This document shows, one piece after another, positions 12,205 to 37,138 of a stretch of 64,000 nucleotides of DNA. The translations under genes and the position numbers were made by a program. The stretch comes from an uncultured Eubacteriaceae bacterium. GTDB lineage: Bacteria; Bacillota; Clostridia; Lachnospirales; CAG-274. Each line of letters starts with the position of its first letter. The first letter of the stretch is position 1. Under the pieces are notes generated by a model, which had not been told where the DNA came from, did not search any database, and worked only from the letters and a program-made list of their open reading frames with translations. The DNA lies in NCBI GenBank assembly GCA_946497035.1, contig CAMMIW010000003.1:1-64000 (forward strand), in the 5' to 3' direction.

Positions 12205-12311
12205 TGAGATCTCTCCTTTGCATAATTAATATTTTTAATAATTTTATCACAAAACATTAAATTATGCAATTTTTTTAAATATTTATTAAAAATGTTTATT
12301 AAAATAAAATA

Positions 12312-12350
12312 ACAAAAGCCCCTATTTCTTATTAAAATACGAGCTTTTGT
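12312..12350 (-). terminator. Terminator of the eight-gene Hsp70 operon
   Basis: Inverted repeat ACAAAAGC (12312-12319) and GCTTTTGT (12343-12350), followed on the minus strand by TATTTTATTTT. It lies 20 bp past the last gene of the cluster. Confidence 0.6.
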
Positions 12351-12370
12351 ATAATTTTAACTATTTATAT

Positions 12371-13543
12371 TTATTTATTATTGTTATTAGTGTACAAACT
12401 TTCTCTATATTCCTCGCTAGACTTTTGTACTACTTTAGAAAGTATACTTTGATACTCTTTAAACTTTCCTTGTGCCTTTTTTATTAAAGATTGTTCAAAT
12501 AATACTTGCTCATTATTCGGTGCTAATGTATACGCCTTATATATAGCTGCCTCCGCCTTTAAAAGGTTATATTCTTGCCTATAATATTTGGCCAGTTTTA
12601 ACCATAATATATAGTTATTTCTATTGTATAAATTAGCTTTTTCTATACATTTTATAGCTAAAGGTATATTATTAAGTTTTTCATATATATCGCTTTTAGC
12701 TATCAATATTTCTATATTAGTATCTTCTATAATATTTAAACAGCTTATAACCTTATCATACATATTAAGATTTACATAACATTTTGCAATTTTTAATATT
12801 ATATTATAAGATTTATCAAATAAATAAGCTTTTATATAATTACTTTTAGCATCTTCAAAAAGTTGTTGTTTAAAGCATAGCTCTCCTGAATAATAATACT
12901 TGCTATATAGCATATCATCTTCTAAGCTATTTATATATTTATTAGCATATTCAAAATCTTCTTTTTCTATTAAAATTTCTATAATATTAAATATTATATC
13001 TTTGTTGTTAGGTGCTATATTAATAGCTTTTTTTAAATATGCTAAAGCTAAATCATATTGTTTTAGCCTTATGTAGCATATTCCAATATTATTATATAAA
13101 ATAGGGTTAGAAACATCAAAATCTATAGCATCTTTGTAGCTTTCGATAGCTTTTTCAAACATATTTTCTTTAAAAAGTCTATCTCCCTTTATTTTCTTTC
13201 TTTCTACTTGTCCTCTTTTTTCCCAATTAAAAAGCTCTAAAGATATACCTTCTAATTCTTCTAATGTATAAAAATTATTAAGTGTTAAAAAGTCTATGCT
13301 TTTTTGATAAAAGCTTTGTTGCTTTTTTATATCTATTAGTTTGTTGGCTAAATCTATATTTAAAAGCTCATTAGATACCCAATTAATAAATTTATCTTCA
13401 AAAAAATCTGTGCTATATTCTTTAAAATTTTTATAAAAAAGATATATTGCTTCTTCTATAGAATAAATGTTTATACCATTTGTAAGCTTATATGGAGATA
13501 TTTTTTTATCTTCTACCATAGCAAGCTTTAAACTAGCTACCAT
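12371..13543 (-). CDS. TPR-repeat protein, last gene of the Hsp70 operon
   Basis: A 390-residue soluble protein. The first 110 residues are unassigned and contain IYSIEEAIYLFYKNFKEY. From about 115 onward it is a chain of tetratricopeptide repeats, seen in units such as FEKAIESYKDAIDFD, YDLALAYLKKAINIAPNN and PLAIKCIEKANLYN at roughly 34-residue spacing. TPR proteins commonly act as adaptors for chaperones or scaffold complexes. Its place at the end of an operon of Hsp70 homologues, 12 bp after the Hsp70-VWA gene, suggests an adaptor role here; that is inference. No signal peptide or membrane span is seen. Confidence 0.85.
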   Translation of the reverse strand: MVASLKLAMVEDKKISPYKLTNGINIYSIEEAIYLFYKNFKEYSTDFFEDKFINWVSNELLNIDLANKLIDIKKQQSFYQKSIDFLTLNNFYTLEELEGISLELFNWEKRGQVERKKIKGDRLFKENMFEKAIESYKDAIDFDVSNPILYNNIGICYIRLKQYDLALAYLKKAINIAPNNKDIIFNIIEILIEKEDFEYANKYINSLEDDMLYSKYYYSGELCFKQQLFEDAKSNYIKAYLFDKSYNIILKIAKCYVNLNMYDKVISCLNIIEDTNIEILIAKSDIYEKLNNIPLAIKCIEKANLYNRNNYILWLKLAKYYRQEYNLLKAEAAIYKAYTLAPNNEQVLFEQSLIKKAQGKFKEYQSILSKVVQKSSEEYRESLYTNNNNK

Positions 13544-13555
13544 AAAAACACCTTC

Positions 13556-15646
13556 TTATAACCTTATTAACTCTGTTATACTTCTAGCTATATTATCTAA
13601 TATATCATAAAATTTATCTTTTAAATCATAATATTTACCATTAGGAACGGTAACAGGATCAAAAGCTGCTAAGCTTTCTTTATCTCTTCTTGCAACAACA
13701 TATGTTGTAACCTTTGCATCTTTTAACATATTGCAAATATCTTCAACGCTTTTTCCACTATTAGTAGGCACATGTGGTGGTGCGTCTGTTATTAATATAA
13801 ATATATTTTGGCTATTAGGCTCTAAAGTAGAGTTTTGTAAAAGTTGAACCCCTGTTTCTAAAGCATCTAAAGAAGATTCTGGTATATCTCCACCATATGT
13901 TCTTGGTATATTTTTTACCTGACGTTTAAATTTTTCTACATCATCTGTAAAATTGTATACACTTGGTTTTTCTTTTTCATTTAAATCGCCAAATCCGATA
14001 AGTCCTAGTTTAAATTTTGCTCCTCTTTCACTTAATATATTAGAAAATTCTATAGCTCTATCTTTAACACCATTTATATAGCTATCCATACTGCCTGTTG
14101 TATCTATTAAAAATGTTACATTAACATTTTCTGTACCTGTTGGGCTAGCATTTTCTTTTTTAGGCGGTGCAGAAAATTTTGTTCTATCAAACTCTGTAAT
14201 TTTTATTTTACCTGTATTTATATCTTTTAAATATACTTCAAAAAGGTTATTTTCATCTATAGCATAAGTTATTTCTATTTGAGCCGTACCTTTAAGACCA
14301 TCTAATAATGCAGTACCTATATATTTTTTATTATTTTCATCACCTTGCTCCCATTGATAAACATCTACAGCAACGGTGCTAGCTCCATTTGCATTAGAAA
14401 ATTTAGAATCTGAAAATTTGCTAGGTATAGGGCTACCCATAGGTATAATAGGTATAAGGCCTCTTTCCATAGTATCTATGTTAATTATAGCTTCTGTTCC
14501 AAATATTTGTCTTGTTATTTGCCCCACCTTAACATTTCTATTAGGCAAATGTATGAGATAATTATAAATAGCCGCCCCCATAGCAACACTCTTAGCAGGA
14601 TCTGTTGCTCTATATGGCTCTTTAACAAAACCTGCTACCATTCTTTTAACCATAGGTATAAGAGTAGAACCACCTACTAATATTACTTTAGATATTTCGT
14701 CTGGCTCTTTACCTGCTCTTTTTAGTGCCTCTTCTAAAATTTCACGGCTTCTTTCTACATATTTTCTAATAAGAGCTTCAAAATCTTCTCTTGTTATATC
14801 TATAGATAAATTTTTAGGCACACCATCTATAATAATAAGTGGATTTATCTTTATAGATGCTTTACCTGTACCTGATAGTTTCTTTTTAGTTTGCTCTGCC
14901 TCTTGTTTAAGCTTTTGCATAACCGTTTTTCTATCTAAATTGTTAAGATTATCTATATCTATACCGCTATCTTCTTTAAATTTTTGTTTCATAAATCTTA
15001 TAAGCTCCGCATCAAAATCATCACCACCAAGATTCATATCTCCAACATCTGATAGCTCTTGAAAAACTTCTTCACCATTTTCATCTATGCTAACTTTTAA
15101 AACGCAAGCATCAAAAGTTCCCCCACCAAAGTCATAAACAAGCAAAGTTTGCGCATATCCCTGTTTATAGCCATATTCTATAGCAGCGGCTAATGGCTCT
15201 GATAAAAGATATACATTTTTAAAACCAGCTAATATACCTGCTTGTTTAGTAGCAAAAATTTGTCTATCATTAAAATAGGCAGGGTGTGTAATAACAACCT
15301 CATCAAAAGTTTCTCCCGATTGCTCTTCTGCTGATTTTTTTAGCTTTTTAAGTATTTCTGCACTTACCTGCTCTGGTGTTACTTCTCTACCATTTATAGA
15401 TATTTTTTCATCTGTACCTATTTTTCTTTTTATAGATATAACCGTGCTTTCTGGATATATAATAGAAGCAAGCTTAGCCTCTGCACCTACTACTATTTCT
15501 TCTCCTTCTAATGTAGGGTAATTTACAACAGATGGTAAAACCTCATCTGTACCGTCTATTTTTACCACCTCTACGCTATCATCTTTATCTCTATATATAG
15601 TAGCAACCGAATTTGTTGTACCTAAATCTATTCCTAAATATCCCAT
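13556..15646 (-). CDS. Hsp70-like ATPase fused to a von Willebrand factor A domain
   Basis: A 696-residue fusion. Residues 1-360 are an intact Hsp70 nucleotide-binding domain: GIDLGTTNS (5-13), the Lys of SIKRKIG, VYDFGGGTFDA (170-180) and VILVGGS (321-327). The Thr of the DnaK motif GDTHLGG is Met here (GDMNLGG). Residues 360-490 are a short beta-rich substrate-like part without the usual hydrophobic VLLLDV linker or helical lid. Residues 508-696 form a VWA domain with a complete metal site: DTTGS (515-519), GGDIPE (585-590) and ITDAPPH (Asp621). VWA domains bind protein ligands through a metal ion, so this looks like a chaperone with a built-in partner-binding module. It is 3 bp from the previous gene. 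Confidence 0.92.
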   Translation of the reverse strand: MGYLGIDLGTTNSVATIYRDKDDSVEVVKIDGTDEVLPSVVNYPTLEGEEIVVGAEAKLASIIYPESTVISIKRKIGTDEKISINGREVTPEQVSAEILKKLKKSAEEQSGETFDEVVITHPAYFNDRQIFATKQAGILAGFKNVYLLSEPLAAAIEYGYKQGYAQTLLVYDFGGGTFDACVLKVSIDENGEEVFQELSDVGDMNLGGDDFDAELIRFMKQKFKEDSGIDIDNLNNLDRKTVMQKLKQEAEQTKKKLSGTGKASIKINPLIIIDGVPKNLSIDITREDFEALIRKYVERSREILEEALKRAGKEPDEISKVILVGGSTLIPMVKRMVAGFVKEPYRATDPAKSVAMGAAIYNYLIHLPNRNVKVGQITRQIFGTEAIINIDTMERGLIPIIPMGSPIPSKFSDSKFSNANGASTVAVDVYQWEQGDENNKKYIGTALLDGLKGTAQIEITYAIDENNLFEVYLKDINTGKIKITEFDRTKFSAPPKKENASPTGTENVNVTFLIDTTGSMDSYINGVKDRAIEFSNILSERGAKFKLGLIGFGDLNEKEKPSVYNFTDDVEKFKRQVKNIPRTYGGDIPESSLDALETGVQLLQNSTLEPNSQNIFILITDAPPHVPTNSGKSVEDICNMLKDAKVTTYVVARRDKESLAAFDPVTVPNGKYYDLKDKFYDILDNIARSITELIRL

Positions 15647-15649
15647 CTC

Positions 15650-17284
15650 TTATCCCTCCAAAACTGTTTTATTAAATCTGCTTGGATCAAAATCTTCATT
15701 ATATCCAGAAGGTTCATATTCTGTGCCATATCCCATATCTGTAACCGAACCTTTAACAAGTCCACCTTCTTCTTCCACCTGTAGTGTTATATTAAGTCGT
15801 GTTTTACCACTAGGACGCTCAGGTAAATCTTTTATTAAAACTTCGCCTATAAGCTTACATTTTTCTATTGTGTCTTCTTTGTTTATTCTTTCCATAATCT
15901 TTAGGCTAAAGCTTGTCATATCTTCTTTTGTATTACCTGAAAGGGTAAATATTTGCTCTTTTTTAGCTAAAGCATAAGGCGTTCCCCTTCTAATCATTGT
16001 ATAAAAAGATTTTACACCGTTATTTTCTATCTCTAAGCCTATATCGTGAGGTACTGTAACTTCAAACTCTATAGACATTTTTTCGCTTTCTATATCTGGA
16101 GATGATAAAAGCCCCATTTTCATAGCCGCATAATATGTTGCACCTAAAGATATATCTAAAGCAGGACGCTCAGATGTATAAATTTTGCTTTCGTTGTTAA
16201 ATATGGCTATAAGCATATCTTTTACCCACGGCATTTGAGAAGATCCACCTTCTAATAAAACTCTGTCTATATCATCTGGTGTTAATGCACCTGTATAAAC
16301 CTCTCTTAAAGCTTTTAAAACAAGCTTTCTTGTTTCTTCTATAAAAGGATTTATTATTTCTTCTAAATCATCTCTTGTCATTTGTTCAACAAAAGGAGGT
16401 ATACAAAATGTAAAAGGTATTCTAAAAGCTTTTACCCCAGACAAACGCTCTTTAGATTCTCTAGCACGGCAAATAAGTTCTACCATATTTTCTGGGCTTA
16501 AATCTTCTCTTTTTTGGTTTGCCTTTTCTTCTATAAAATCATAACATCTATTTAAAATATATTCATCTACGTTATCGCCACCGTGATAAGCCTTTCCACC
16601 TTCGCTTATCACCTGTAACTTTATATGTTTATCATCTTTTTCTAATACGTTAAATAATGTTATATCTAATGTACCACCACCAAAATCAAATACCATAATT
16701 TTTTCATCTTGGTTTAACTGATGCCTAAAATTATATGCAAGAGCTGCTGCTTTTGGCTCTTCTATAAGACAAATAAGCTTTTCTGATATACCTGCTAACT
16801 CACAAGCTTTCATTGTTGCTTTTTTAGCCGCATCATCAAAATCGTATGGAACAGAAACAACAAGTCCTGCTATCTCTGCTTTAGGATTTAAGCTTTTACA
16901 ATGTTCTATAAGCTCTGTTAATATTTTTGCAGATATTTCTTCTGGTAAATATTTTTTACCGTCTAACTCTACCGTTTCATTTGTGCCCATTTTTCTCTTT
17001 ATAGAACGTATAGTAGTTTCTGGATATATTTTCATAGAGCGAAAAGCCTCTTCACCTATAACCCATTCTCCTTCTCCTTCATCATCTTTTCTATATTGAA
17101 CAACAGAAGGCATAGGTATTTTTCCAAATCCATTGCTTATATCTATTGGCTCTGGTTTTTCATTTATCATATCCCAATAGCTTATTATAGAATTAGTAGT
17201 GCCTAAATCTATCCCTAAAATATAATAATCTTCTGATAAGCTTCTATTTTCTTCTATTTGCTTTTTATATTCTGTCCATTTCAA
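15650..17284 (-). CDS. Lidless Hsp70-family protein
   Basis: A 544-residue Hsp70 homologue. The ATPase core looks functional: GIDLGTTNS (24-32), SIKRKMG, VFDFGGGTLDI (198-208), EEPKAAALAY and LLEGGSSQMP. The segment matching the DnaK GDTHLGG loop is changed to GKAYHGGDNVD, so the loop Thr is absent. The C-terminal 130 residues are a beta-sandwich-like substrate domain beginning EVTVPHDIGLEI. The alpha-helical lid and the C-terminal acidic tail of DnaK (about 640 residues) are missing. No J-domain partner or dnaJ gene is in the window. It lies between the pseudo-Hsp70 gene (30 bp) and the Hsp70-VWA gene (3 bp). Confidence 0.92.
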   Translation of the reverse strand: MKWTEYKKQIEENRSLSEDYYILGIDLGTTNSIISYWDMINEKPEPIDISNGFGKIPMPSVVQYRKDDEGEGEWVIGEEAFRSMKIYPETTIRSIKRKMGTNETVELDGKKYLPEEISAKILTELIEHCKSLNPKAEIAGLVVSVPYDFDDAAKKATMKACELAGISEKLICLIEEPKAAALAYNFRHQLNQDEKIMVFDFGGGTLDITLFNVLEKDDKHIKLQVISEGGKAYHGGDNVDEYILNRCYDFIEEKANQKREDLSPENMVELICRARESKERLSGVKAFRIPFTFCIPPFVEQMTRDDLEEIINPFIEETRKLVLKALREVYTGALTPDDIDRVLLEGGSSQMPWVKDMLIAIFNNESKIYTSERPALDISLGATYYAAMKMGLLSSPDIESEKMSIEFEVTVPHDIGLEIENNGVKSFYTMIRRGTPYALAKKEQIFTLSGNTKEDMTSFSLKIMERINKEDTIEKCKLIGEVLIKDLPERPSGKTRLNITLQVEEEGGLVKGSVTDMGYGTEYEPSGYNEDFDPSRFNKTVLEG

Positions 17285-17314
17285 TATATATTCACCTCTT
17301 TTTCTTTTGTTTTA

Positions 17315-18805
17315 TTAAATATTTATAATAAATTGTTGTTTAAAGTCTGTCTTTGGATATATTTCCCCAAATCCAAAATCTTCTATATTAAAAATCATTT
17401 CTTTATTATTTTTAAATTGTATATAAATTAAAAATCTTATTGTTTTTATATCTCTATTATCAAATTGAGAATAATCATTTAAATTTAATTTTATTTTTTC
17501 TAAAGTTTTAAAACTATTGTCTTCTTCTGAGGCTATATCAATTTCTATATTTTTATTTTTTGTTAATGTAAAAACTTTTTTATCAAAATTTTGCCATATA
17601 AAGCTACCTTTATATACAAATGGTTCAAATTTTATATTATTGTTATCTTTTATAAATATGCCCATATTATAGCCTATTTGATCTAAATCTTCTATATACA
17701 TTTTATCTTTAGGTAAAATCCCAAGCTCTTGACAAGCAACTATACAAGCACCATCTGATATAAATCTTTTAGCTTTACCTTTAAAATTTGTTTCTATATT
17801 AAATCTAGATTTTATAAATTTATGTATAAAATCTATCTCTATACCGCCACCTGTTAATATAATATTTTTTATATGATTCTCATTAATGTTTATACTTTCA
17901 AATAAGCTATTAAAAAATATATTTATTTCATTTTCAAAAAATGAGATTATATCAAATAGCTCTTGCTTAGTTATTACCTTTTGAAAAGGTGGATAAAAAA
18001 AGTTATAATATAGCTTTATATCTGACAAAGTTTGTCTTTGAAAAATAATATCAAATTGCTGATATACAAAAGAATCTAAATTATTTTTTTCATATTCTGT
18101 TAAATCTATCTTACCTGTTTCTTCTAAAAATTTTTTAGTTATTAAATTTTTAGTAATGTTAAAAAGCCTTTGTTGGCCTATTTTATCATTAAAAAATGTT
18201 TTTATACATTTAACTTTACCATCTTTTTCTATTGTATATACAGATGCTCTTAATTGTCTATTGCTATAATCTACAATTAATACTTTATCTCCTAAAATAT
18301 CGTTTTCATAAAAATAACTTTTTAATATACATTCTTTATCACTAGCTATCTTTAATAATAAATGATCGATATTTGCTAATTTAAAGGCTTCTTTTATATC
18401 TTCTTCGTTAGCATAAGATGATGTAGATAAAACAATGCCTTCTATACTAGCATTGGGGTTTATATTTTTTATATTTTCTAATAAAAATAATATAAACTTG
18501 CTAAGAGCTAAAGTAACACTTATATTTATATTATTTATGCTATAAATAATACCTTTTCCAAGATTTTCTATTATATTTTCTATTATTATTTCGTTGCCAA
18601 AACCTTTGTTTAATATGGCATATTCTCCAAAAATCCAGTCTTCTGTATCTACATTATAAGAAACTACTGTTGGTACACTAACTTTACCATATCCCCCGCT
18701 AACATCTACCACATCTATATTCATTTGGTTAAAATCAAAATAAGATATAGTAGATGTTAAATTGCCTAAGTCTATGCCTATTATAAATTTGTTTTCATTA
18801 TTCAT
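17315..18805 (-). CDS. Degenerate Hsp70-like protein (pseudo-ATPase)
   Basis: A 496-residue protein collinear with the Hsp70s on either side but with the nucleotide site destroyed. The first phosphate loop is GIDLGNLTS (10-18) instead of GTTNS. The second is VDYSNRQLRA (178-187) where active members have DFGGGTFDA. The Lys of the IKR motif is lost, and the EPxAAA motif is replaced by SDKECILKS. The adenosine loop is ILTGGG. The frame is open and well preserved with a normal start, so this is a maintained non-catalytic relative, not a decaying gene. A scaffold or regulatory subunit of the neighbouring Hsp70s is a reasonable inference. It starts 9 bp after the GrpE-wing gene. Confidence 0.85.
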   Translation of the reverse strand: MNNENKFIIGIDLGNLTSTISYFDFNQMNIDVVDVSGGYGKVSVPTVVSYNVDTEDWIFGEYAILNKGFGNEIIIENIIENLGKGIIYSINNINISVTLALSKFILFLLENIKNINPNASIEGIVLSTSSYANEEDIKEAFKLANIDHLLLKIASDKECILKSYFYENDILGDKVLIVDYSNRQLRASVYTIEKDGKVKCIKTFFNDKIGQQRLFNITKNLITKKFLEETGKIDLTEYEKNNLDSFVYQQFDIIFQRQTLSDIKLYYNFFYPPFQKVITKQELFDIISFFENEINIFFNSLFESININENHIKNIILTGGGIEIDFIHKFIKSRFNIETNFKGKAKRFISDGACIVACQELGILPKDKMYIEDLDQIGYNMGIFIKDNNNIKFEPFVYKGSFIWQNFDKKVFTLTKNKNIEIDIASEEDNSFKTLEKIKLNLNDYSQFDNRDIKTIRFLIYIQFKNNKEMIFNIEDFGFGEIYPKTDFKQQFIINI

Positions 18806-18814
18806 AAAAAACCC

Positions 18815-20512
18815 CTACTTTGCTGCTATAATAGTAGCTCTTTTTATAACACCTTCATCTTTTTTCTTATATCCATAATTTATAACTTTTATTATTTGCC
18901 CTTTAACAAAATCTTCATTTTTTTCTGCTAATAAAACCTCGTGCTCTTTTGCATTAAACATATCATGAGGATTTGGCTTTATAGGTAAAATATTATTATT
19001 TATTAAACATTTTTCTATTTCTACTTCTATATTATCTATATATTTTGTAAAATCTAATATTTTTTCATCATCACTTTCTCTAAGCCTTACAACAGAATAA
19101 TAGATTATCTCTTGAAATGTACTTATTTCAAATAAAATAGTATTTTTAATAAAATCATCTAATTTTTTTATGTAAGGCTTAAAAGTTTTTTCTATTTTAG
19201 ATAAAAAGCTATTAATATTTATAAATTGTTGTATTTTTTCTAAATCAAATTGTTCTTTTAATGTAACATATATATTATCAAAATCATAATCTAACTCTAT
19301 ATTTTTAAAATCTTTTAAAGTATCGTTTATATTTTTATATATTACATCTTTATTAGAAAATATTTCGTTTTCCTTTTCTTTTATATTATCAATTTTTATA
19401 TTAATAGTTTCATTTATCCCATCTATAATGTTATATAAATCGTTTTTTTCATAAAACTTTTTGTTTTTATTTACATATTTTAAAATGCTCTCAAACATAT
19501 TTGTAACATTTTTAGATAAAGCTAAAGTTTTTTCTATGTTATCTTTAATATTATCTACTTTTTGTTGTTGTTGTAAAATAATATTATATTTAAAATCTGA
19601 TAAATATTGTTCAAATATATTAAAAGCTTTTTGTTTAAATTGTTCTTCTGGCTCTTTAATATCTTTAAATATATTAAAAATAGCTTTTTCCATTTCTTTA
19701 TTATCTATATCTATTTTTAAATTAATATTTGTATCTACCATTTTAATTTTTAAATTAAGATCCTCAAAGCTTTTTCCTGTTTGTTGATAAACCTCTATTA
19801 TAGGCTTTAATAAAATTTCTATTTGATTTTTTTCTTCATCATTTTTACATAAATCTTCTAAAGCTTTTATTTGAAGCTTTATTATAGATGATAAAATTTC
19901 TCTTTCTTCTTCTAAAACATCATTAAAATAGCTTACTTCTTTTCTATTTTCTATATCGTTAATAGCATTAAAACATTCCAATAAATTTGTTTTATAGCTA
20001 CGCTCTATCTCTTTTATAGCATTTTCAATAAAAAATTGTTTTATATTTTTAATATTTATATTTTTAAAATTATAGCTACACAAACTATCTATTTTTTTAT
20101 AAATGTTATCTATATATTTTGTTGTTATAGCTTTTTTTTCAGCATAAATAGGGTTTACATCTACATTTTTATCATCAAAAAAGAATCTAACTTGACTTTT
20201 TAAAACAGATGTTATGCCAGCCAAATTTTTTAACATTTCATCATTAAATTTAAACTTTAAACTTTCTTCTTGACTTAAAAAAATAATATAGTTATCAATA
20301 ATAGTTTTATATATATTAAAAATATCTTCATCAAATAAAGCTAAACTTTTATTTTTAGATATATGGTTCATAAAGCTAGCTAAAATAAGTCTTTTTATCC
20401 TTTTGTTATTAGAAGTAAATTTTTCTTTAAGCATCAAAATATATTCTGTTTCAAAACAATTTTGCTCCATAAAAATTTTTTCAAGCTCTATTTCTATGGC
20501 TGACTTACACAT
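18815..20512 (-). CDS. Long helical/coiled-coil protein ending in a GrpE-like wing domain
   Basis: 565 residues. Residues 1 to about 500 are almost wholly charged and helical (Lys, Glu, Ile, Asn rich), with long stretches suited to coiled coil near 270-420. The last 57 residues (509-565) resemble the beta-wing of GrpE, the DnaK nucleotide exchange factor. They share the order P-x-x-PNPH, then G-Q-I-I-K-V-x-N-Y-G-Y, then VIKRATIIAAK, against PNxHxA, GxVxxVxQKGY and RxAMVxVAK in GrpE. The gene lies between two Hsp70 homologues, so a dedicated exchange factor or clamp for them is a strong inference. The wing similarity is by eye only. Confidence 0.8.
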   Translation of the reverse strand: MCKSAIEIELEKIFMEQNCFETEYILMLKEKFTSNNKRIKRLILASFMNHISKNKSLALFDEDIFNIYKTIIDNYIIFLSQEESLKFKFNDEMLKNLAGITSVLKSQVRFFFDDKNVDVNPIYAEKKAITTKYIDNIYKKIDSLCSYNFKNINIKNIKQFFIENAIKEIERSYKTNLLECFNAINDIENRKEVSYFNDVLEEEREILSSIIKLQIKALEDLCKNDEEKNQIEILLKPIIEVYQQTGKSFEDLNLKIKMVDTNINLKIDIDNKEMEKAIFNIFKDIKEPEEQFKQKAFNIFEQYLSDFKYNIILQQQQKVDNIKDNIEKTLALSKNVTNMFESILKYVNKNKKFYEKNDLYNIIDGINETINIKIDNIKEKENEIFSNKDVIYKNINDTLKDFKNIELDYDFDNIYVTLKEQFDLEKIQQFININSFLSKIEKTFKPYIKKLDDFIKNTILFEISTFQEIIYYSVVRLRESDDEKILDFTKYIDNIEVEIEKCLINNNILPIKPNPHDMFNAKEHEVLLAEKNEDFVKGQIIKVINYGYKKKDEGVIKRATIIAAK

Positions 20513-20535
20513 AAGCTCTCCCCTTCATACAATTA

Positions 20536-22209
20536 TTAATAAAGCTCATCTACAGATAATTCTGTAACTATACCATCATCACTCATACTTTTAGCAGTAA
20601 CTTTAAGCATATTATCTGGACTTACGCTAAATATTACTTTTACCTTTTCTTGCCCTTTTGGCCCTTGTGGTATACCTCTTAAAGATGTACCTGCAAGTCT
20701 TTTCATACCATCATTAGTAACAAATGTACCTTTTTCATCACTAGGAATAGTATTTTCATATACAACAATCGCCATACTGCTAACATTATCAAAATTAGTT
20801 ATAAGCGGTTCTGGTGCTTCTACAACAAGACTATCTTTTGGTATATCCATACCTGCTTTTACAATTTCCATAAAACGTCTACCTGCTATTTCAAGGCCTA
20901 TCGGGTGTATTGTTTTTTCATGAACAACAGGACCTTTTACAGTTGGCATCATAATCATATTACAATAATGAGCAGCTCCTTGAGATATACTAAGAGCAGG
21001 ACTTATTTTAGATTTAAAAGGCTCTTTATTAAATTTTTCTTTTATTTTTTCGCTAACAATAGGCATAGAAGAGCTACCACCTACTAAAAATATCTCATCT
21101 ATATCTTCTGCTTTTATTTTAGCTGTTTCTAAAGATTTATCTACACATTCTATAGTTTTATTTATCATATCTATAACAGATTTTCCTTCAAACTTTTCAA
21201 ATATTTTATCGCTATCATTAAGTTTGTTTACCCTTTTATGGTTTAAAAAATCTTCTCTTGTTATTTCCATATTAATATTAACAATTTTAGGCTCTTGTAT
21301 AAAAGGTGCTAAAACTACTTTTGTAGATTTTGCTTGAGAAAGTCTTTCTTTTGCTTGGTTTGCCATTTGTGCTAATCTAACTAATGCAACCTTTTTTTGT
21401 CTTTTAGAAACACAATCATCTATATTTTCATCAAATAAATCTATTTCATTATCTGTAAGTTTTTTAAACTCTTCATAAATCATATCTATTAATATTTTAT
21501 CAACGTCATTTCCACCTAAGTCGTTATCACCATAAGTGCTTAAAATAGATATATTAGGCTCTTGGTTTTCGTCTAATTTAATCTCTAATATACAAGCATC
21601 AAAAGTACCCCCGCCAAAATCATATACTAAAACTTTTTTATCTTTTCTTTCATTAACAGCATAGCTTATAGCCGCAGCAGCTGGCTCTAACCTTAAATAT
21701 ACACTATCTTCATCAAAACCTGCAAGTATAGCTGCCTCTTTTGTCATTTTCTTTTGTTTATCTGTAGAATTTGCAGGAACTGTTATTACACATCCTGAAA
21801 ATTCACCTGATATATTAAGCTTTTCTCTTGCATATTCATCTGCCATTCTTTTTAAATAGCCCATTATCTCTCCTGCTACTTGTTCTGGCTTAAAGCTAAA
21901 TTCTTTATCATCTACATTTATTATAATATTTTCATCTGTACCTAAAAATCTTTTTATAGATAAAATTGTGCTTTGTGGATATATCATAGCTGCCTCTTTA
22001 GCTTGAACACCAAATATTTTAGATAATTTATTTTCATCTTCTATATCTGTTTCAAATTGGATAGCTGTTGGAAAAATATTACTACCATCAATAGGTATTG
22101 TTTGAACCTCTCCATCTTTAAAATCAAATATACTTACAACAGAGTTTGTTGTACCAAAATCTATGCCTAAAAATAATCCTCTTTCTAAATCAAGTCCTAA
22201 TGTTGCCAT
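20536..22209 (-). CDS. Lidless Hsp70-family protein
   Basis: 557 residues, the most upstream Hsp70 of the operon. It has an N-terminal extension of about 13 residues (MATLGLDLERGLF) before GIDFGTTNS (15-23). Other motifs are SIKRFLG, VYDFGGGTFDAC (195-206), LEPAAAAISY and FLVGGSSSMP. The DnaK GDTHLGG motif is GDNDLGG, so the loop Thr is Asn. The substrate-binding part (about 420-557) is a single beta domain containing ITNFDNVSSMAIVVYE and KVIFSVSPDNMLKVTA, which corresponds to the DnaK beta-sandwich; the lid is absent. Relative to the Hsp70-VWA protein its ATPase domain is similar, pointing to duplication within the locus. Confidence 0.92.
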   Translation of the reverse strand: MATLGLDLERGLFLGIDFGTTNSVVSIFDFKDGEVQTIPIDGSNIFPTAIQFETDIEDENKLSKIFGVQAKEAAMIYPQSTILSIKRFLGTDENIIINVDDKEFSFKPEQVAGEIMGYLKRMADEYAREKLNISGEFSGCVITVPANSTDKQKKMTKEAAILAGFDEDSVYLRLEPAAAAISYAVNERKDKKVLVYDFGGGTFDACILEIKLDENQEPNISILSTYGDNDLGGNDVDKILIDMIYEEFKKLTDNEIDLFDENIDDCVSKRQKKVALVRLAQMANQAKERLSQAKSTKVVLAPFIQEPKIVNINMEITREDFLNHKRVNKLNDSDKIFEKFEGKSVIDMINKTIECVDKSLETAKIKAEDIDEIFLVGGSSSMPIVSEKIKEKFNKEPFKSKISPALSISQGAAHYCNMIMMPTVKGPVVHEKTIHPIGLEIAGRRFMEIVKAGMDIPKDSLVVEAPEPLITNFDNVSSMAIVVYENTIPSDEKGTFVTNDGMKRLAGTSLRGIPQGPKGQEKVKVIFSVSPDNMLKVTAKSMSDDGIVTELSVDELY

Positions 22210-22232
22210 ATTATTTCCTCCTTAGTTATGTT

Positions 22233-24896
22233 TTATAATATTTTCCCTTTTAAATTATAATCTTTTGATATAAGTTTTTCTATTACTCTATGTGCTTCAT
22301 CATATTTACCTTCATAAGTATATATAAAAGCATTATTTATTTTAAAATATTCATCATCTATATCAAAAACCTTGTTTTTAGAATTAGTTGCTATAAACCT
22401 TTTAGTAGATATATTGCCACCTTCCATATTTTCTGAAAAATAATACTCTATATCTTCCCCATAAAAAATAGGTAACACTGCTATATACATACCATATTTA
22501 AAATATTGCATCTTTATAGAAAAAAACTTATCTTGGTTAATATTTTTATAATATAAATAAACCTGTTTATTAGGTAAAGTATTGTAAATAAAAGGTTTAT
22601 TTTTATATAAATACGAAAAGTTTTTAAATTTGTCTTTGTTATCTTCAAATATTTTAAAATTTAACTGTTCATTTTCCATGTTTTTTATAATATTTTCAAA
22701 AATTTCATATTTATTTTCTAAATTATAATTACCTTTTAAATATACATGTGCTAACGTATAACCTATCATACTATCATTTGTTTCTTTAAATATATATTCC
22801 ATAATATATAAAATATCATCACTAAATATATAATCACCAGTAAAAGCTTCATACATACAATAGTTTAAAAAATATTCTATTATTTTATTATCAACGTCTT
22901 GTTTATATATTTCTATAAATATTTTTTCACTATAACTATTTATACTATGTGTATATATTGTAAGTTTTAATATATATTCGTCTATTTCTCTTTTTAAAAC
23001 ACCTATATTTTCCAAAGATTTTCTAAGCTCTATCCATTCTTTAAGGCCACCTTTATAATATTTTAAAACTATATCTATAAAAAGATTATCCACCTTAGAA
23101 CGTAACAAAAGCTCATAGGCAAATATTGCTATTTCTTTATCATACTTTTCTTCTTCGCTTATAACCTTTATAGCATAAAATAATGTATCATCATCTAATA
23201 TATGTACCTTTTTCTTTATAATTTCTATAGCTTTATCAAATTCTTTGCAAAAAACATAAGTTTTAACAATATTATTAATATATTTATCGTTTATATATTT
23301 TTCTAAAACTTTTTTATAATACTCTGTTGCCAAATTATAATTTTTATAATAAAAACTAATATTGCCAAGAGTTAACAATATTTGCATCTTAAAAGAAACA
23401 GATATATCTTTTAAAGTTAAAACCTCTCTTAATAGCTCTATTTTTATATTTTGTAAGTTTTCTGAACTTAAATAATATTTTACCGTGTTTATTAATGTAA
23501 ATTTATCTTTATAGCCTCTATTGTAAAATCTATAAAAATATTTACCATTAACCCCTTCTATTACTTTATTCATTTTTATTTTGCAATTTATTATATCTTT
23601 TTTATCTTCCGAAAAAACATAGTAATAAAAATTTGTAGAACTAGCATTTATAAGAGCTTTATTATTTTTTATTGTATATTCTTTAAGAGTGTCTATTTCA
23701 TAATCTTTTATAAGTATTATTTTAGCTTTCTCATTTTCTATATAAATTTCATATAAAAAATTGTTAGGATATAATATATCCATTATCTTTTTTTCTTCTA
23801 TCGTATCTTCTGGTATAAAGTCTAACATATACTTATATATTGTATAATAATATTTTCCTTTACAACCTTTTTCTAAAAAATATGCTCCATATTGTAATAT
23901 TTTGTTTTTATATTCTAAAACTAGCTCATTATATTTTTTATCATTTAAAATAATATAATACATAAAAGACATCATTTCTAAATCTGTGTTTGTATCTTTT
24001 AAAAATTGCTTAATAGGATAAAGGCCTATATCTTCCATATTATTTTTATAACAAGCTTTTATATAGCTATTATTTAAACCTGTTAATGATAGCTGCCTAT
24101 TTATAGCCTCTTTAAAAAAGAAATAACTAGTTTTTGTATGTATATTATTTTCTAAATATACTTCACATATTTTAGCAAGTATAAAATCAAAATTATAACA
24201 TTTATACATTTTCATATTAAAAATATCATCTTCAAAATCGAAAATTATGCTATTTTCATATCTAAATATAGATTTTTCTATATTTAGATTATTATATAAA
24301 GCCCATTTTATATAATTTTTAAATGTATCTTTTTCAAAACTTATAAATTTTGAATTTTTTTCAAAAATATTATATAAAATTATGTTTTTCCAAAAACTAT
24401 TAGTTTGTATATTTTCAAAATAAGCTAAAGCATCTCTATCAATATTATCTATATATTGTTTTAAAAATAATATATAGATATTGCATATATCATTATTAAT
24501 ATTTTGTAACAATTTTATATATTTGTTTGTACCTCTAATAGAACCTTTTTGTGCTTTTATTAAGCCTTTTAAAAAGAGATAAAAACTATATTTTTTAATA
24601 TCATTATTTTTTAAATATTTTTTATATTTTGATATATTGCTACTAAAATATTCTATTTTTTCTTTATCTTGTATATTTATGCTAAAAAAAAGTATAGCTA
24701 ATAAAATATCAAAATCTGATCTATTTTGGCTTAAATATTCTGCACAACAATTATAACCTTTATTTAGATACTCTGTTTTATCCATAGTTAAAAAGCCTAA
24801 ATAATATCTATTTAAAAGCATTATAAGTCTTTTTTTATTTTTTTTATTATTATATTGTTTTTCTATATTATTAATGCTTTTTTCTATAAAATCCAT
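22233..24896 (-). CDS. Large helical-repeat protein, second half of a DUF5717-like pair
   Basis: 887 residues with no signal peptide or membrane span. It is dominated by Lys, Tyr, Ile and Asn-rich helices that read as degenerate TPR-like hairpins, clearest near residues 515-600 (ISFYYKNYNLATEYYKKVLE). A beta-richer C-terminus with FIYTYEGKYDEAHRVIEKLI follows. It begins in the same frame as the preceding gene, 9 nt after that gene's TAG stop, with an overlapping TAGGAG ribosome-binding site. From memory, related Clostridia encode a single protein of about 1200 residues (DUF5717) beside Hsp70 genes; this and the 24906-26087 product would be its two parts. Function unknown. Confidence 0.75.
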   Translation of the reverse strand: MDFIEKSINNIEKQYNNKKNKKRLIMLLNRYYLGFLTMDKTEYLNKGYNCCAEYLSQNRSDFDILLAILFFSINIQDKEKIEYFSSNISKYKKYLKNNDIKKYSFYLFLKGLIKAQKGSIRGTNKYIKLLQNINNDICNIYILFLKQYIDNIDRDALAYFENIQTNSFWKNIILYNIFEKNSKFISFEKDTFKNYIKWALYNNLNIEKSIFRYENSIIFDFEDDIFNMKMYKCYNFDFILAKICEVYLENNIHTKTSYFFFKEAINRQLSLTGLNNSYIKACYKNNMEDIGLYPIKQFLKDTNTDLEMMSFMYYIILNDKKYNELVLEYKNKILQYGAYFLEKGCKGKYYYTIYKYMLDFIPEDTIEEKKIMDILYPNNFLYEIYIENEKAKIILIKDYEIDTLKEYTIKNNKALINASSTNFYYYVFSEDKKDIINCKIKMNKVIEGVNGKYFYRFYNRGYKDKFTLINTVKYYLSSENLQNIKIELLREVLTLKDISVSFKMQILLTLGNISFYYKNYNLATEYYKKVLEKYINDKYINNIVKTYVFCKEFDKAIEIIKKKVHILDDDTLFYAIKVISEEEKYDKEIAIFAYELLLRSKVDNLFIDIVLKYYKGGLKEWIELRKSLENIGVLKREIDEYILKLTIYTHSINSYSEKIFIEIYKQDVDNKIIEYFLNYCMYEAFTGDYIFSDDILYIMEYIFKETNDSMIGYTLAHVYLKGNYNLENKYEIFENIIKNMENEQLNFKIFEDNKDKFKNFSYLYKNKPFIYNTLPNKQVYLYYKNINQDKFFSIKMQYFKYGMYIAVLPIFYGEDIEYYFSENMEGGNISTKRFIATNSKNKVFDIDDEYFKINNAFIYTYEGKYDEAHRVIEKLISKDYNLKGKIL

Positions 24897-24905
24897 TTTA
24901 AACTC

Positions 24906-26087
24906 CTATATTAAACTATTGCCAATATAAATATTTTTTTCCATCTTATAAACGTTGTCGCCTAAAATAGCCTTTATAAGTATTTGGCTTTCTATATTAG
25001 GCTTTTTTGTAAAATCCATTTGAGCTTTTAAAAAACCCGTAAGTTTTATATTAAAATTTATCTCACTATATTTAGATATAAGATATTTTTTGCCTTCAAA
25101 ATATATAAATGTATCTTTTGGTACAATCTCTATAACAATATCTTCTTCCGTATTATTTAATATTTTTAATACCCCTTTATCTATAGGCATAAAATATTCT
25201 TTTTCAAACAAAACTTCTATAGGGTTTTTTCTGCTAATTTCTATTATAACATTTTCATTAGTTTTATTAAATAAAATTTTTCTTCTTTCAAAAAAACTAT
25301 TTATTTTATCTTTTAAAATTGTAAATTCTAAATTATATATACCATTTTCATTAAAATCTTTATTAGTTATTTTATTTTTTGATAAAACTATATAATCTAT
25401 ATCATCTTCTAAAGATATATCTTCTTCAAAATAACCATTTCCTATAAGCTTTAAAGTAACTATACCTATTATATCTGCTTTAGATTTTGTTTTATAATAT
25501 TTATACTTAAATATTTTTTGTGATAGCTCTATATAACATTTTTCTTTCATTTTTGTTAATATAAAAAAATTATCAATAGCTCTTTGTTTATTAGCATCTT
25601 TTAATATTTCTTCTACCACATCAATATGGGCATAATTTATATTTTTTAACCAAAGCATAAACTCATAAGAATAAAAAATTCTTATAGACTCTATATAATT
25701 TTTTAAGTAATAGTTATAAAAGTCTTTTATCGTGTATATTTTTTCTTTACCACACTCTAAATAATCAAAATTTGATATAGTAATATAAACAGGTAAATAA
25801 ATTTGCCCACCATTAGAAACTATTATTAGTTCACTTTTTATAAAATCACCGCTAGAATATATAGACGGAACTATATTATATTCTATACATACTTGATTAC
25901 CTTCAAAGCTGTCTTTTTCTAATACAAGACATTCTGTATTAGATATAATATCGCCAGATAATATCCCCCCTCCTATATTTTTAATATTTATAAAGCCTTT
26001 ATTTTTTTCGCTCATATTTATAGCTATTTTATCTATATCTATTTCTATATTTGGTAAAGGATACTCTAAAAATTCTCTTAAATCCAT
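24906..26087 (-). CDS. Beta-rich protein, first gene of the Hsp70 operon (DUF5717 N-terminus-like)
   Basis: 393 residues from the ATG at 26087. I chose this start over the in-frame GTG at 26108 because AGAAGG lies 7 nt before it. Residues 1-115 form a beta-sandwich-like module with conserved-looking pieces: FINIKNIGGGILSGDII, FEGNQVCIEYNI and IIVSNGGQIYLPVYITI. From memory these match the N-terminal part of the DUF5717 family, which adds a presumed Ig-like fold. A helical middle and further beta domains to the C-terminus follow. It ends at an in-frame TAG 9 nt before the next ATG. No export signal is seen, so an intracellular adaptor or recognition subunit is possible but unproven. Confidence 0.75.
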   Translation of the reverse strand: MDLREFLEYPLPNIEIDIDKIAINMSEKNKGFINIKNIGGGILSGDIISNTECLVLEKDSFEGNQVCIEYNIVPSIYSSGDFIKSELIIVSNGGQIYLPVYITISNFDYLECGKEKIYTIKDFYNYYLKNYIESIRIFYSYEFMLWLKNINYAHIDVVEEILKDANKQRAIDNFFILTKMKEKCYIELSQKIFKYKYYKTKSKADIIGIVTLKLIGNGYFEEDISLEDDIDYIVLSKNKITNKDFNENGIYNLEFTILKDKINSFFERRKILFNKTNENVIIEISRKNPIEVLFEKEYFMPIDKGVLKILNNTEEDIVIEIVPKDTFIYFEGKKYLISKYSEINFNIKLTGFLKAQMDFTKKPNIESQILIKAILGDNVYKMEKNIYIGNSLI

Positions 26088-26130
26088 TTTTTTACCTTCT
26101 TTAACCACTTTCTATATTTTACTAACTTTT

Positions 26131-26159
26131 ATTATAAATGATTTTTTTAAAACTATCAA
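26131..26159 (-). promoter_or_regulatory. Sigma-A promoter of the Hsp70 operon
   Basis: On the minus strand, TTGATA (26154-26159) and TATAAT (26131-26136) are exactly 17 bp apart and about 45 bp upstream of the first gene. No CIRCE or CtsR-type operator is visible, so the cluster does not look like a classical heat-shock operon. Confidence 0.8.
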
Positions 26160-34591: not shown

Positions 34592-37138
34592 TTAACTATT
34601 TAATGTTTTTAAAAGCATTTCACCAATACCTACATTATATCCTGCACAACCGTAAATTACTTTTTGATTATAGTTAAATACTATTGCAAGTGGTAACTTT
34701 TTATCTGTAATATCTAAATCATTATAAATTTTATCTATATTGTATCCATCTTTTTCTATAAATATATTAAGATTTGGTACAACCTTTAAAGTTTTGTTTA
34801 ATGTAAAATCATTTATATCTTTAATATCTCTTAATATTAATATAGTATTTATATTTTTATCATTATATTTTTCAGAAGCCTCTCTTATTTCGTTTAAAAG
34901 ATGCTCTGTTGGCTCCATACCAACGTGTAACCAAGCAACAATACCTTTTTTATTATTAAGTGATTTTAAAAGAGTTGTTTCTTTATTTTCTGTATCAAAA
35001 ATAATTCTATCTTCTATATCTATCTCTTTACCTATATGTTTTATTTGTGGTAAATGTAATTGTAGCTCAGAAGATTTATTTTCTTCTACTTTAACAAATA
35101 AAACTTTTACCATATTAACTTCATCTGGGCGTCTATTTGCTAAAACAACACGATAATTGCCTACCTCTAAATTATATTTTACTTTATCATCTTCCCATTT
35201 GATATTATCTAAATCTAAAGTTATATAATGGCCTTTTTCTAATTTACCTATCGTATAGTTTTTATAATATTCGTATGTTGTATTATCTCCTTTTTTAAGA
35301 ACTAAAGTACCTTTTTTAATTTCTGCTTTTGGTTCTTCTTTATAAATATGTATCCATTCTCCATTATTATAATATACTACTTTACCATCTGCTTTATCCA
35401 TTTTAGCAGCTATTCCTAAGCTTCTTAATATAGCAACTGTAACAATAGCTTTAGATACTTTATTTACAAGTCTAGATTTTAAAGCACCTACAGGTGATGT
35501 AGTAAGATTAGTATATTCGCTTATACCATATTGTGTAATATTTTCATTTACAAAATTACCAACTTGTAATGGATTTTCTATTATACTATTTTTAATATTT
35601 TCATCTAAAATATTAGGTATTTGTTTTTTATATAAAGTAATATTTTCATTCCAAACACGTGGATTTAAAAGATTTTCTACAAAAATATCTTTTTCATATT
35701 TATCTTTATATTTTATACTTTCTGTTATATTTTCCATTAATATAGTATATGTTATATCAGATAAATCTTTCTCTCTTAAAGCTTTTAAAAGTAATACTTT
35801 ATATTCTAATAAATTTTTAGTATTTTCATCTTCTAAAAATTTTTCTATCTCTTTATAATTTCCCCTTGCTAAAGGCATAATTTTTGCTATATCATCTTGC
35901 ATAATATCAAACTTTAAGCTATATGTTTTAGCAGTTTCTTCATTATAAAAAGTAGCTTCAAAAGCTTTTCTAATACTTAAAGCATTTTCATTTTTATGAG
36001 CTTGTTGTTTTTCTTGCTCTTCTGTAAGTTTATCTTCTTCATCTATACCACCTTTAGCGGGTGCCATTTCAAGTTCAAAACCTTCAGTTTCTTCTTTAAT
36101 GTTATCAAATATTAATGTCAAATTTTCTATTTCATTTACATTTATTTTTTTATAAACATATCCATTATCATTATATGCAAAAACAAATAAATCTCCTAGC
36201 CCTGTTACAAAAGTAACCTCACCATTTATATCTGTTACAAGGGTTGCTATTGGGAAAAATTCACAATAATTTACTACCTCAAAACCAACATTTATATCTT
36301 TAAGTGGCTTATTATTTTTATCTACTATTTTAACTTTTATTTTTTTTGTTTTAGCATAATGATGTAATACATTTATTTCTGTAACTGTATCTGTTTGTTT
36401 AGTTATTATTTCATCTCCTACCATATCACAAAACACTCTATTATGAATAAGAGGTGCTTTAGATGCAGGTAACCTAAACCAACCTGTATTAAGTCTTATT
36501 TCTGGTTCACAAGCACCTAAAAAATACCATTTATTATCTGCTAAAACTTCAACCCAAGCGTGATTATCATCACAATGAGCCCAACGAGGTGCATAACATT
36601 GTCTTGAAGGTAAGCAAACGCTTCTAAGAGCAGCTACTAAAAATGTAGATTCTTCCCCACATCTACCATAAGCATTTTTAACAACAGTTAAAGGAGATGC
36701 GGTTCTATTATCTGTAGCTTTATATGTAGCTTTAGAAAAAGCCCAATAATTAATCTCTATAATAGCATCATACATTGATAAATCTTTAATTTTTGGATAA
36801 AGCTCATCAAAAAAAGTTTCGCAAAAATATTCTATATTTTCGTTATTTATTCTATATTGTAAAACATAATTTAAAAAATCTATATCACTAATAGATTTTC
36901 CCCAAGGCATTAAATTACGTACCTTTAAAGAATGTCTTACAAATTTTAAAAATAAGCTAGGAGAATAATCTGCCATATCTGTAAGGGGCATATAAGCATA
37001 AAGATATTTTAAACAAAAGCTTTCTTCTTCATTACATTCTTCTAATACTTGTAATATTTCATCTTTTATAGTTTCACAATATTCACAAGCTTTTTTAAAT
37101 TTTAGTTCAATTTTTTCTTGTTCTAATAAACTAAGCAT
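34592..37138 (-). CDS. Transglutaminase-fold protein with C-terminal thioredoxin-like domain
   Basis: 848 residues, no signal peptide. A transglutaminase-like papain-fold core lies at about 145-215, with GRCGEES (Cys160), DDNHAWVEV (His193) and WYFLGACEPE. The GRCGE box and the closing CE recall peptide:N-glycanase, but the position matching its catalytic Asp is Gly208 here. A beta-sandwich at about 255-355 starts KKIKVKIVDKNNKPLKDINV, typical of carboxypeptidase-regulatory-like domains. A helical middle follows, then a thioredoxin-like end from about 715 (KGIVAWLHVGMEPTEHLLNEI) without a CxxC. Similar large proteins occur beside glycosidase genes in gut bacteria. Glycopeptide processing is plausible but unproven. 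Confidence 0.8.
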   Translation of the reverse strand: MLSLLEQEKIELKFKKACEYCETIKDEILQVLEECNEEESFCLKYLYAYMPLTDMADYSPSLFLKFVRHSLKVRNLMPWGKSISDIDFLNYVLQYRINNENIEYFCETFFDELYPKIKDLSMYDAIIEINYWAFSKATYKATDNRTASPLTVVKNAYGRCGEESTFLVAALRSVCLPSRQCYAPRWAHCDDNHAWVEVLADNKWYFLGACEPEIRLNTGWFRLPASKAPLIHNRVFCDMVGDEIITKQTDTVTEINVLHHYAKTKKIKVKIVDKNNKPLKDINVGFEVVNYCEFFPIATLVTDINGEVTFVTGLGDLFVFAYNDNGYVYKKINVNEIENLTLIFDNIKEETEGFELEMAPAKGGIDEEDKLTEEQEKQQAHKNENALSIRKAFEATFYNEETAKTYSLKFDIMQDDIAKIMPLARGNYKEIEKFLEDENTKNLLEYKVLLLKALREKDLSDITYTILMENITESIKYKDKYEKDIFVENLLNPRVWNENITLYKKQIPNILDENIKNSIIENPLQVGNFVNENITQYGISEYTNLTTSPVGALKSRLVNKVSKAIVTVAILRSLGIAAKMDKADGKVVYYNNGEWIHIYKEEPKAEIKKGTLVLKKGDNTTYEYYKNYTIGKLEKGHYITLDLDNIKWEDDKVKYNLEVGNYRVVLANRRPDEVNMVKVLFVKVEENKSSELQLHLPQIKHIGKEIDIEDRIIFDTENKETTLLKSLNNKKGIVAWLHVGMEPTEHLLNEIREASEKYNDKNINTILILRDIKDINDFTLNKTLKVVPNLNIFIEKDGYNIDKIYNDLDITDKKLPLAIVFNYNQKVIYGCAGYNVGIGEMLLKTLNS

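Follow-up and report, generated by a model that had tools for sequence, protein, structure and literature searches.

Textbook Hsp70s need a J-protein as their trigger. The locus described here, which lies in a window of 64,000 nucleotides (the whole stretch of DNA that was analyzed) from a Clostridia bacterium of gut type, carries several Hsp70-like genes in one operon and raises the question of whether their products work for the ordinary DnaK system of the cell or form a machine of their own. An earlier note, written from the letters of the sequence, had favoured a self-contained multi-Hsp70 machine separate from the normal heat-shock system, and the results below bear on each part of that proposal.

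Layout of the operon and the canonical dnaK system

The locus comprises eight open reading frames, all on the minus strand between positions 12371 and 26087 and transcribed in the order P8, P7, P6, P5, P4, P3, P2, P1, with intergenic gaps of 9, 23, 23, 9, 30, 3 and 12 bp; the earlier description of one minus-strand operon with gaps of 3–30 bp was reproduced exactly. An AAGAAGG motif stands just 5' of the ATG at 26087, which is most likely the start of P8, and the program-called start at 26108 is an upstream GTG. A sigma-A-type promoter candidate (TTGATA-17-TATAAT) is found on the minus strand at 26131–26159. Its sequence matches at 11 of 12 positions, has 17-bp spacing and is among the two best matches within 16 kb, although promoter-like matches are common by chance in the AT-rich DNA of the window (162 found versus 127 expected). 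The sigma-A promoter that the earlier note placed here is thus a strong match set among frequent chance matches. At the other end, an intrinsic terminator on the minus strand at 12300–12352 has a 10-bp outer stem with a U-rich tail behind it; its folding energy is −17.8 kcal/mol (z = −6.9), and it encloses the terminator previously noted at 12312–12350.

A search of the window at up to three mismatches found no CIRCE operator, as had been noted by eye. Elsewhere in the same genome, hrcA, grpE, dnaK (613 aa, with its lid) and dnaJ form a complete operon on another contig, with a CIRCE carrying one mismatch just upstream of hrcA. Because a normal CIRCE-linked hrcA–grpE–dnaK–dnaJ operon exists elsewhere and no CIRCE occurs in the window, the eight-gene operon is separate from that system. 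Such a separation had been claimed in the earlier note, which also suggested looking for a normal dnaK–grpE–dnaJ operon; for this genome, that check yielded a complete one.

The active Hsp70s retain the ATPase site and have lost J-docking residues

Domain assignments throughout are Pfam matches above the gathering cut-offs. The HSP70 domain was found in P6 (20536–22209, 557 aa), P3 (15650–17284, 544 aa) and P2 (13556–15646, 696 aa), all on the minus strand, and weakly in P4. All three consist of a nucleotide-binding domain (NBD) and a retained SBD-beta domain and lack the SBD-alpha lid: the HSP70 match stops at 485–492 of 599, and P2 has a VWA domain in its place. MreB profiles likewise match P2, P3 and P6.

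Residues were numbered on E. coli DnaK, in a sequence that matches the published residues at each site named here. The catalytic residues D8, T11, T12, K70, E171, D194, T199 and D201 are fixed in P6, P3 and P2 across 27–30 orthologues of each (out of 30, 30 and 28 orthologues, respectively, one P2 being truncated). The three lidless Hsp70 homologues with intact phosphate loops reported earlier therefore keep every ATPase residue checked.

The surface that receives the J-protein gave the opposite picture. In DnaK, R167, Q378, linker residue L391 and D393 take part either in docking the J-domain or in passing on its signal (PMC8215388, PMC7289447). R167, N170, Q378, D393 and a VLLLD-type linker were kept in 8/8 DnaK controls and replaced in P6, P3 and P2, and the replacements are largely fixed within each paralogue. 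As further controls we used short Hsp70s encoded near J-domain protein genes in other Clostridia (L123:9069-11656, L124:7190-10895 and L125:9327-12656); since all three keep R167, N170 and D393, the loss is specific. None of the eight proteins contains a DnaJ domain by Pfam, so the absence of dnaJ that the earlier note had pointed out now extends from the gene content to the docking residues themselves. Judged from these residues, P6, P3 and P2 are probably J-independent; the loss is also compatible with another J-like trigger or with a DnaJ that works differently.

Two further features distinguish the paralogues. The GrpE-signature loop is retained in P2, nearly retained in P6 and deleted in both P3 and P4, a pattern that predicts which Hsp70s the GrpE-type protein P5 serves. 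In the VWA domain of P2, the MIDAS motif (DxTxS, GGD, D) is intact, with D515, T517, S519, D587 and D621 present in 26/26 sequences.

A dead Hsp70, a GrpE-type protein and partners of uncharacterized families

P4 (17315–18805, minus strand, 496 aa) is an ATPase-dead Hsp70 of the DUF5716_C family (52.1 bits) that lacks the equivalents of K70, T199 and D201, which specifies the ruined ATP site recognized in the earlier note. DUF5716_C also matches P3, and P3 and P4 group together in the tree, a placement to be taken with caution given the long branches and the unusual composition of P4. From this grouping, the common loop deletion and the common C-terminal DUF5716 match, the dead P4 probably arose from a P3-like Hsp70.

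P5 (18815–20512, minus strand, 565 aa) consists of a long helical, coiled-coil region followed by a C-terminal GrpE beta-wing (PF01025, residues 477–562), which scores 35.0 bits against a cut-off of 25.8. The coiled-coil protein with a GrpE-like wing is thus placed in a known family, and P5 is predicted to be a nucleotide exchange factor. The statement that the operon has no standard co-chaperones holds for J-proteins and must be withdrawn for GrpE, given that P5 belongs to that family.

P8 (24906–26087, minus strand, 393 aa) and P7 (22233–24896, minus strand, 887 aa) had been described as a large split pair. They proved to be a single Pfam family, DUF5717, cut into two genes: P8 carries the first third of DUF5717_N (PF18984 13–289/875; 107.2 bits), and P7 carries the remainder of DUF5717_N, the DUF5717 C-terminal domain and a TPR-like stretch (73.4/95.9 bits). 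In some other taxonomic families DUF5717 is one gene, and we treat P8 and P7 as the two halves of a putative scaffold. P8 is beta-rich by sequence and has an SNGGxIxxP motif; no FNIII model of Pfam matched P8 or P7, which look beta-rich with TPR. AlphaFold models of P5 and P8 built from two-sequence alignments reached pLDDT values of 54 and 32, too low for use. The last gene, P1 (12371–13543, minus strand, 390 aa), encodes a protein with a specific N-terminal region and a TPR match above the Pfam cut-off, in agreement with the TPR protein noted before.

Two of these families were already catalogued: P4 is a member of DUF5716 (PF18980), P8 and P7 together of DUF5717 (PF18983/PF18984), and the Pfam records give no function for either. 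To that extent the undescribed system of the earlier note has to be qualified. The open-licence literature searched held nothing on DUF5717, nothing relevant on DUF5716 and no link of either to an Hsp70/GrpE machine; within it, the eight-gene set seems never to have been described before. The parts have diverged to different degrees: in orthologues from other families, median identity to the window is 72–75% for the three Hsp70s and 23–30% for their partners.

The gene set recurs in order across families

Within its own family, DUF5717 is present in 13/48 genomes. Seven genomes beyond the window have the complete eight-gene set with its order unchanged, and most of the other DUF5717 loci are cut by contig ends. 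DUF5717 is missing from 35/48 genomes, so the set is not essential in all of them. One locus of this family (G399, L060:12440-12530) is without P2 and P1 at the 3' end of the operon and has an unrelated rpiR-like gene after P3.

Across the order, a search with a P5 profile identified the expanded GrpE in 61/245 genomes from ten families (66 matches less five canonical short GrpEs). Among 20 loci read from other families, 13 hold the whole set in order, with DUF5717 as one gene or two; at one of these 13 (L174), a frame break splits both P2 and the TPR gene in two. Of the seven loci left, several are interrupted by other genes or ended by a contig edge. Beyond the order, the class-wide sample contained no expanded GrpE, the best class-wide relatives of P2 among the matches listed were ordinary DnaKs, and no DUF5717 match exceeded the cut-off in 299 genomes of the phylum. 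A possible decaying copy was seen at G644:C93:2810-3403, where an expanded-type GrpE wing is preceded by in-frame stops.

The earlier note had reasoned that a dedicated machine would be a poor explanation if the homologues were scattered singly across genomes. Such scattering was not observed, because the set, with its coiled-coil, TPR and VWA members, recurs in order across about ten families. We have high confidence in reading the operon as the source of a dedicated machine other than DnaK, and we infer from the gene order that its products would associate physically.

A reduced form and a candidate membrane partner

In one family, DUF5717 was found in 16/16 sampled genomes in a reduced setting. 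At the loci read, the genes after DUF5717 encode a short dead Hsp70 of the DUF5716 family, a TPR protein of 280 aa and, mostly, a coiled-coil/two-TM protein. The expanded GrpE occurs in 0/327 genomes of this family, the seven matches obtained being canonical GrpEs of 206–234 aa. From the known range of the DUF5716 and DUF5717 Pfam families, the order is probably Lachnospirales and the reduced-form family probably Lachnospiraceae. A divergent CobD/HisC-like aminotransferase precedes the locus in several genomes of both the window's own family and the reduced-form family, and some genomes of the reduced-form and other full-set families have valyl-tRNA synthetase after it; on account of these common neighbours, the reduced and full loci look orthologous. 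With the full set in about ten families and the reduced form in one, loss of P6, P5, P3 and P2 is a simpler reading of the reduced form than gain, which is the less likely alternative.

Hydropathy analysis detected no transmembrane segment in the eight operon proteins. In several full-set families a two-TM gene lies directly after the TPR gene. No such gene stands beside the window operon; its orthologue is on another contig of the same genome (G000 C12:57337-58719, that is, L186:6838-8220, minus strand) and encodes a protein with the layout coiled-coil/two-TM/coiled-coil, in which a strong hydrophobic stretch reaches hairpin length. One genome of the same genus (G428, L189:8661-10028) has the two-TM gene with neither DUF5717 nor the expanded GrpE, perhaps by loss or through an assembly gap.

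Across the own family, the two-TM gene and DUF5717 are both present in 12 genomes and both absent from 34, with one discordant genome in each direction. The co-occurrence gives a Fisher p of 2e-9 by genome, a count inflated by close relatives, and of 0.003 by genus (4 both versus 7 neither), both values uncorrected for kinship; one of the seven "neither" genera, g229, has the expanded GrpE. The two-TM protein is likely a ninth part of the system. The machine is therefore probably not the self-contained one that the earlier note had supposed, since an unlinked gene co-occurs with the operon. In four other families, a conserved gene encoding a TM segment and a long coiled coil lies directly upstream of P8 (L158, L164, L166, L168, L172 and L177); we considered it as a relative of the two-TM gene and rejected this, as the two have no profile similarity.

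Related systems and alternative explanations

Like the DnaK–DnaJ–GrpE system, the operon combines Hsp70 NBD and SBD-beta domains with a GrpE-family protein. It differs in having a dead paralogue beside three lidless ones, no J-docking surface, a VWA fusion and no CIRCE; its GrpE wing belongs to a coiled-coil protein of 565 aa, and DUF5717 and TPR proteins join as additional partners. HscA and HscC offer a second comparison: both are dedicated, client-specific Hsp70s, HscC probably at the membrane, which keep the lid and their own J-proteins, have the GrpE-signature loop deleted and are thought to be GrpE-free (PMC8215388). The loop deletion is found in P3 and P4 as well, with the loop kept in P2 and nearly in P6, whereas here the lid and the J-docking site are gone and the operon has a GrpE-type protein but no J-protein gene. 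A third comparison is with clusters from Clostridia of another family, in which two to four lidless Hsp70s surround a coiled-coil protein whose tail resembles GrpE. TerD genes, some of them TerD-VWA, stand beside five such loci with three or four lidless Hsp70s (L122, L136, L137, L139 and L140), and the J-docking residues are eroded there too. These Ter-linked clusters differ in their TerD/TerF neighbours, in having no DUF5716, DUF5717 or TPR protein, and in Hsp70s that belong to other clades. Orthology with the Ter-linked Hsp70s was rejected on their separate, deep clades in a tree whose deep order is unsure owing to long branches; a tree test rejected the grouping of P3 with the third Ter Hsp70 (p 0.018) but did not reject that of P6 with the second (p 0.23). 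The open-licence literature searched contained no description of lidless bacterial Hsp70 clusters or of Hsp70 with TerD.

Three other explanations were weighed against a dedicated machine. The operon could be an ordinary stress branch whose extra Hsp70s borrow the DnaJ (and GrpE) of the main system and act on general clients. The complete hrcA–grpE–dnaK–dnaJ operon of the same cell and the kept SBD-beta domains speak for this, but the J-docking residues and linker are changed in the orthologues, and the operon has its own GrpE-type protein and a fixed partner set with neither CIRCE nor lid, which leaves it unlikely. An actin-like assembly, in which the Hsp70/actin-fold ATPases would assemble into a filament or ring scaffolded by coiled coils as a cytoskeletal or envelope element, seems very improbable. 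Hsp70 and MreB have a common fold, P2, P3 and P6 match MreB profiles, and a structural assembly would fit the mixture of dead and active paralogues, the coiled coils and the TM partner; yet an MreB match is expected of any Hsp70, polymer-interface evidence is absent, and SBD-beta and the GrpE wing are characteristic of chaperones.

Among published proposals, the closest is one theme of the GAP1-N2 GTPase systems, which combines HSP70, GrpE, truncated HSP70 and FNIII-TPR proteins (Kaur et al. 2020, PMC7159879). By analogy, the operon might be a conflict (anti-phage) system in which HSP70, GrpE and beta-sandwich/TPR proteins set the threshold of an effector. Beyond the resemblance of the component list, this draws some support from a cousin cluster (L138:2018-12820) that couples GrpE, three lidless Hsp70s and an Hsp70-VWA protein with MotA-like coiled-coil, OmpA-domain and DUF6273 proteins and looks like a chaperone-coupled ZorAB-type system, and from weak matches to PADLOC candidate models. 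Those matches, however, cover only generic TPR and Hsp70 stretches, and none of the eight proteins has a Pfam match to a GTPase, GAP1, DnaJ or effector domain, nor is there a variable effector slot. The aminotransferase and valyl-tRNA synthetase neighbours recur across families, which argues for vertical inheritance at a conserved locus as opposed to scattered conflict islands or a mobile island. We thus rejected a defence island, and likewise a mobile element: P2 has no match in the viral contigs searched, and plasmids give only ordinary DnaK-like matches, with no full-length Hsp70-VWA match. A conflict role is improbable on this evidence. One weak phage-family match was seen, in the TPR region only.

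A proposed mechanism

The preferred reading is of a multi-Hsp70 complex that is dedicated, works independently of J-proteins, has an exchange factor of its own and is probably tethered to the membrane; for this reading as a whole, we estimate a probability of about 0.5. In this complex, a scaffold of the DUF5717, TPR and dead-Hsp70 proteins would hold the active Hsp70s and take over from the J-protein both the delivery of the client and the triggering of ATP hydrolysis. Through a metal ion, the VWA domain of P2 would grip a partner. P5 would reset P2 and P6, in which the loop is kept or nearly kept, by nucleotide exchange; P3, the loop-deleted sister of the dead P4, may exchange on its own or paired with P4. 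The unlinked coiled-coil/two-TM protein would tether the complex to the membrane, and ATP cycling would there drive the remodelling or assembly of one specific client rather than general folding.

More tentatively, the operon may represent a kind of machine not seen before, in which several lidless Hsp70s and a dead one are fixed subunits of one membrane-tethered, J-free complex, triggered by a scaffold and reset by a private GrpE, and from which one large family dropped the motor and kept the scaffold. Three active Hsp70s without a J-docking surface provide a natural system for asking what else triggers an Hsp70, and the reduced family allows one to ask what the scaffold does where the motor has been lost. 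The operon is also the first functional lead for DUF5716 and DUF5717.

Apart from the operon, the window contains at 34592–43885 genes for a transglutaminase-core protein (848 aa), an alpha-L-fucosidase, an M17 aminopeptidase and GH20 enzymes, a combination that looks like host-glycan use.
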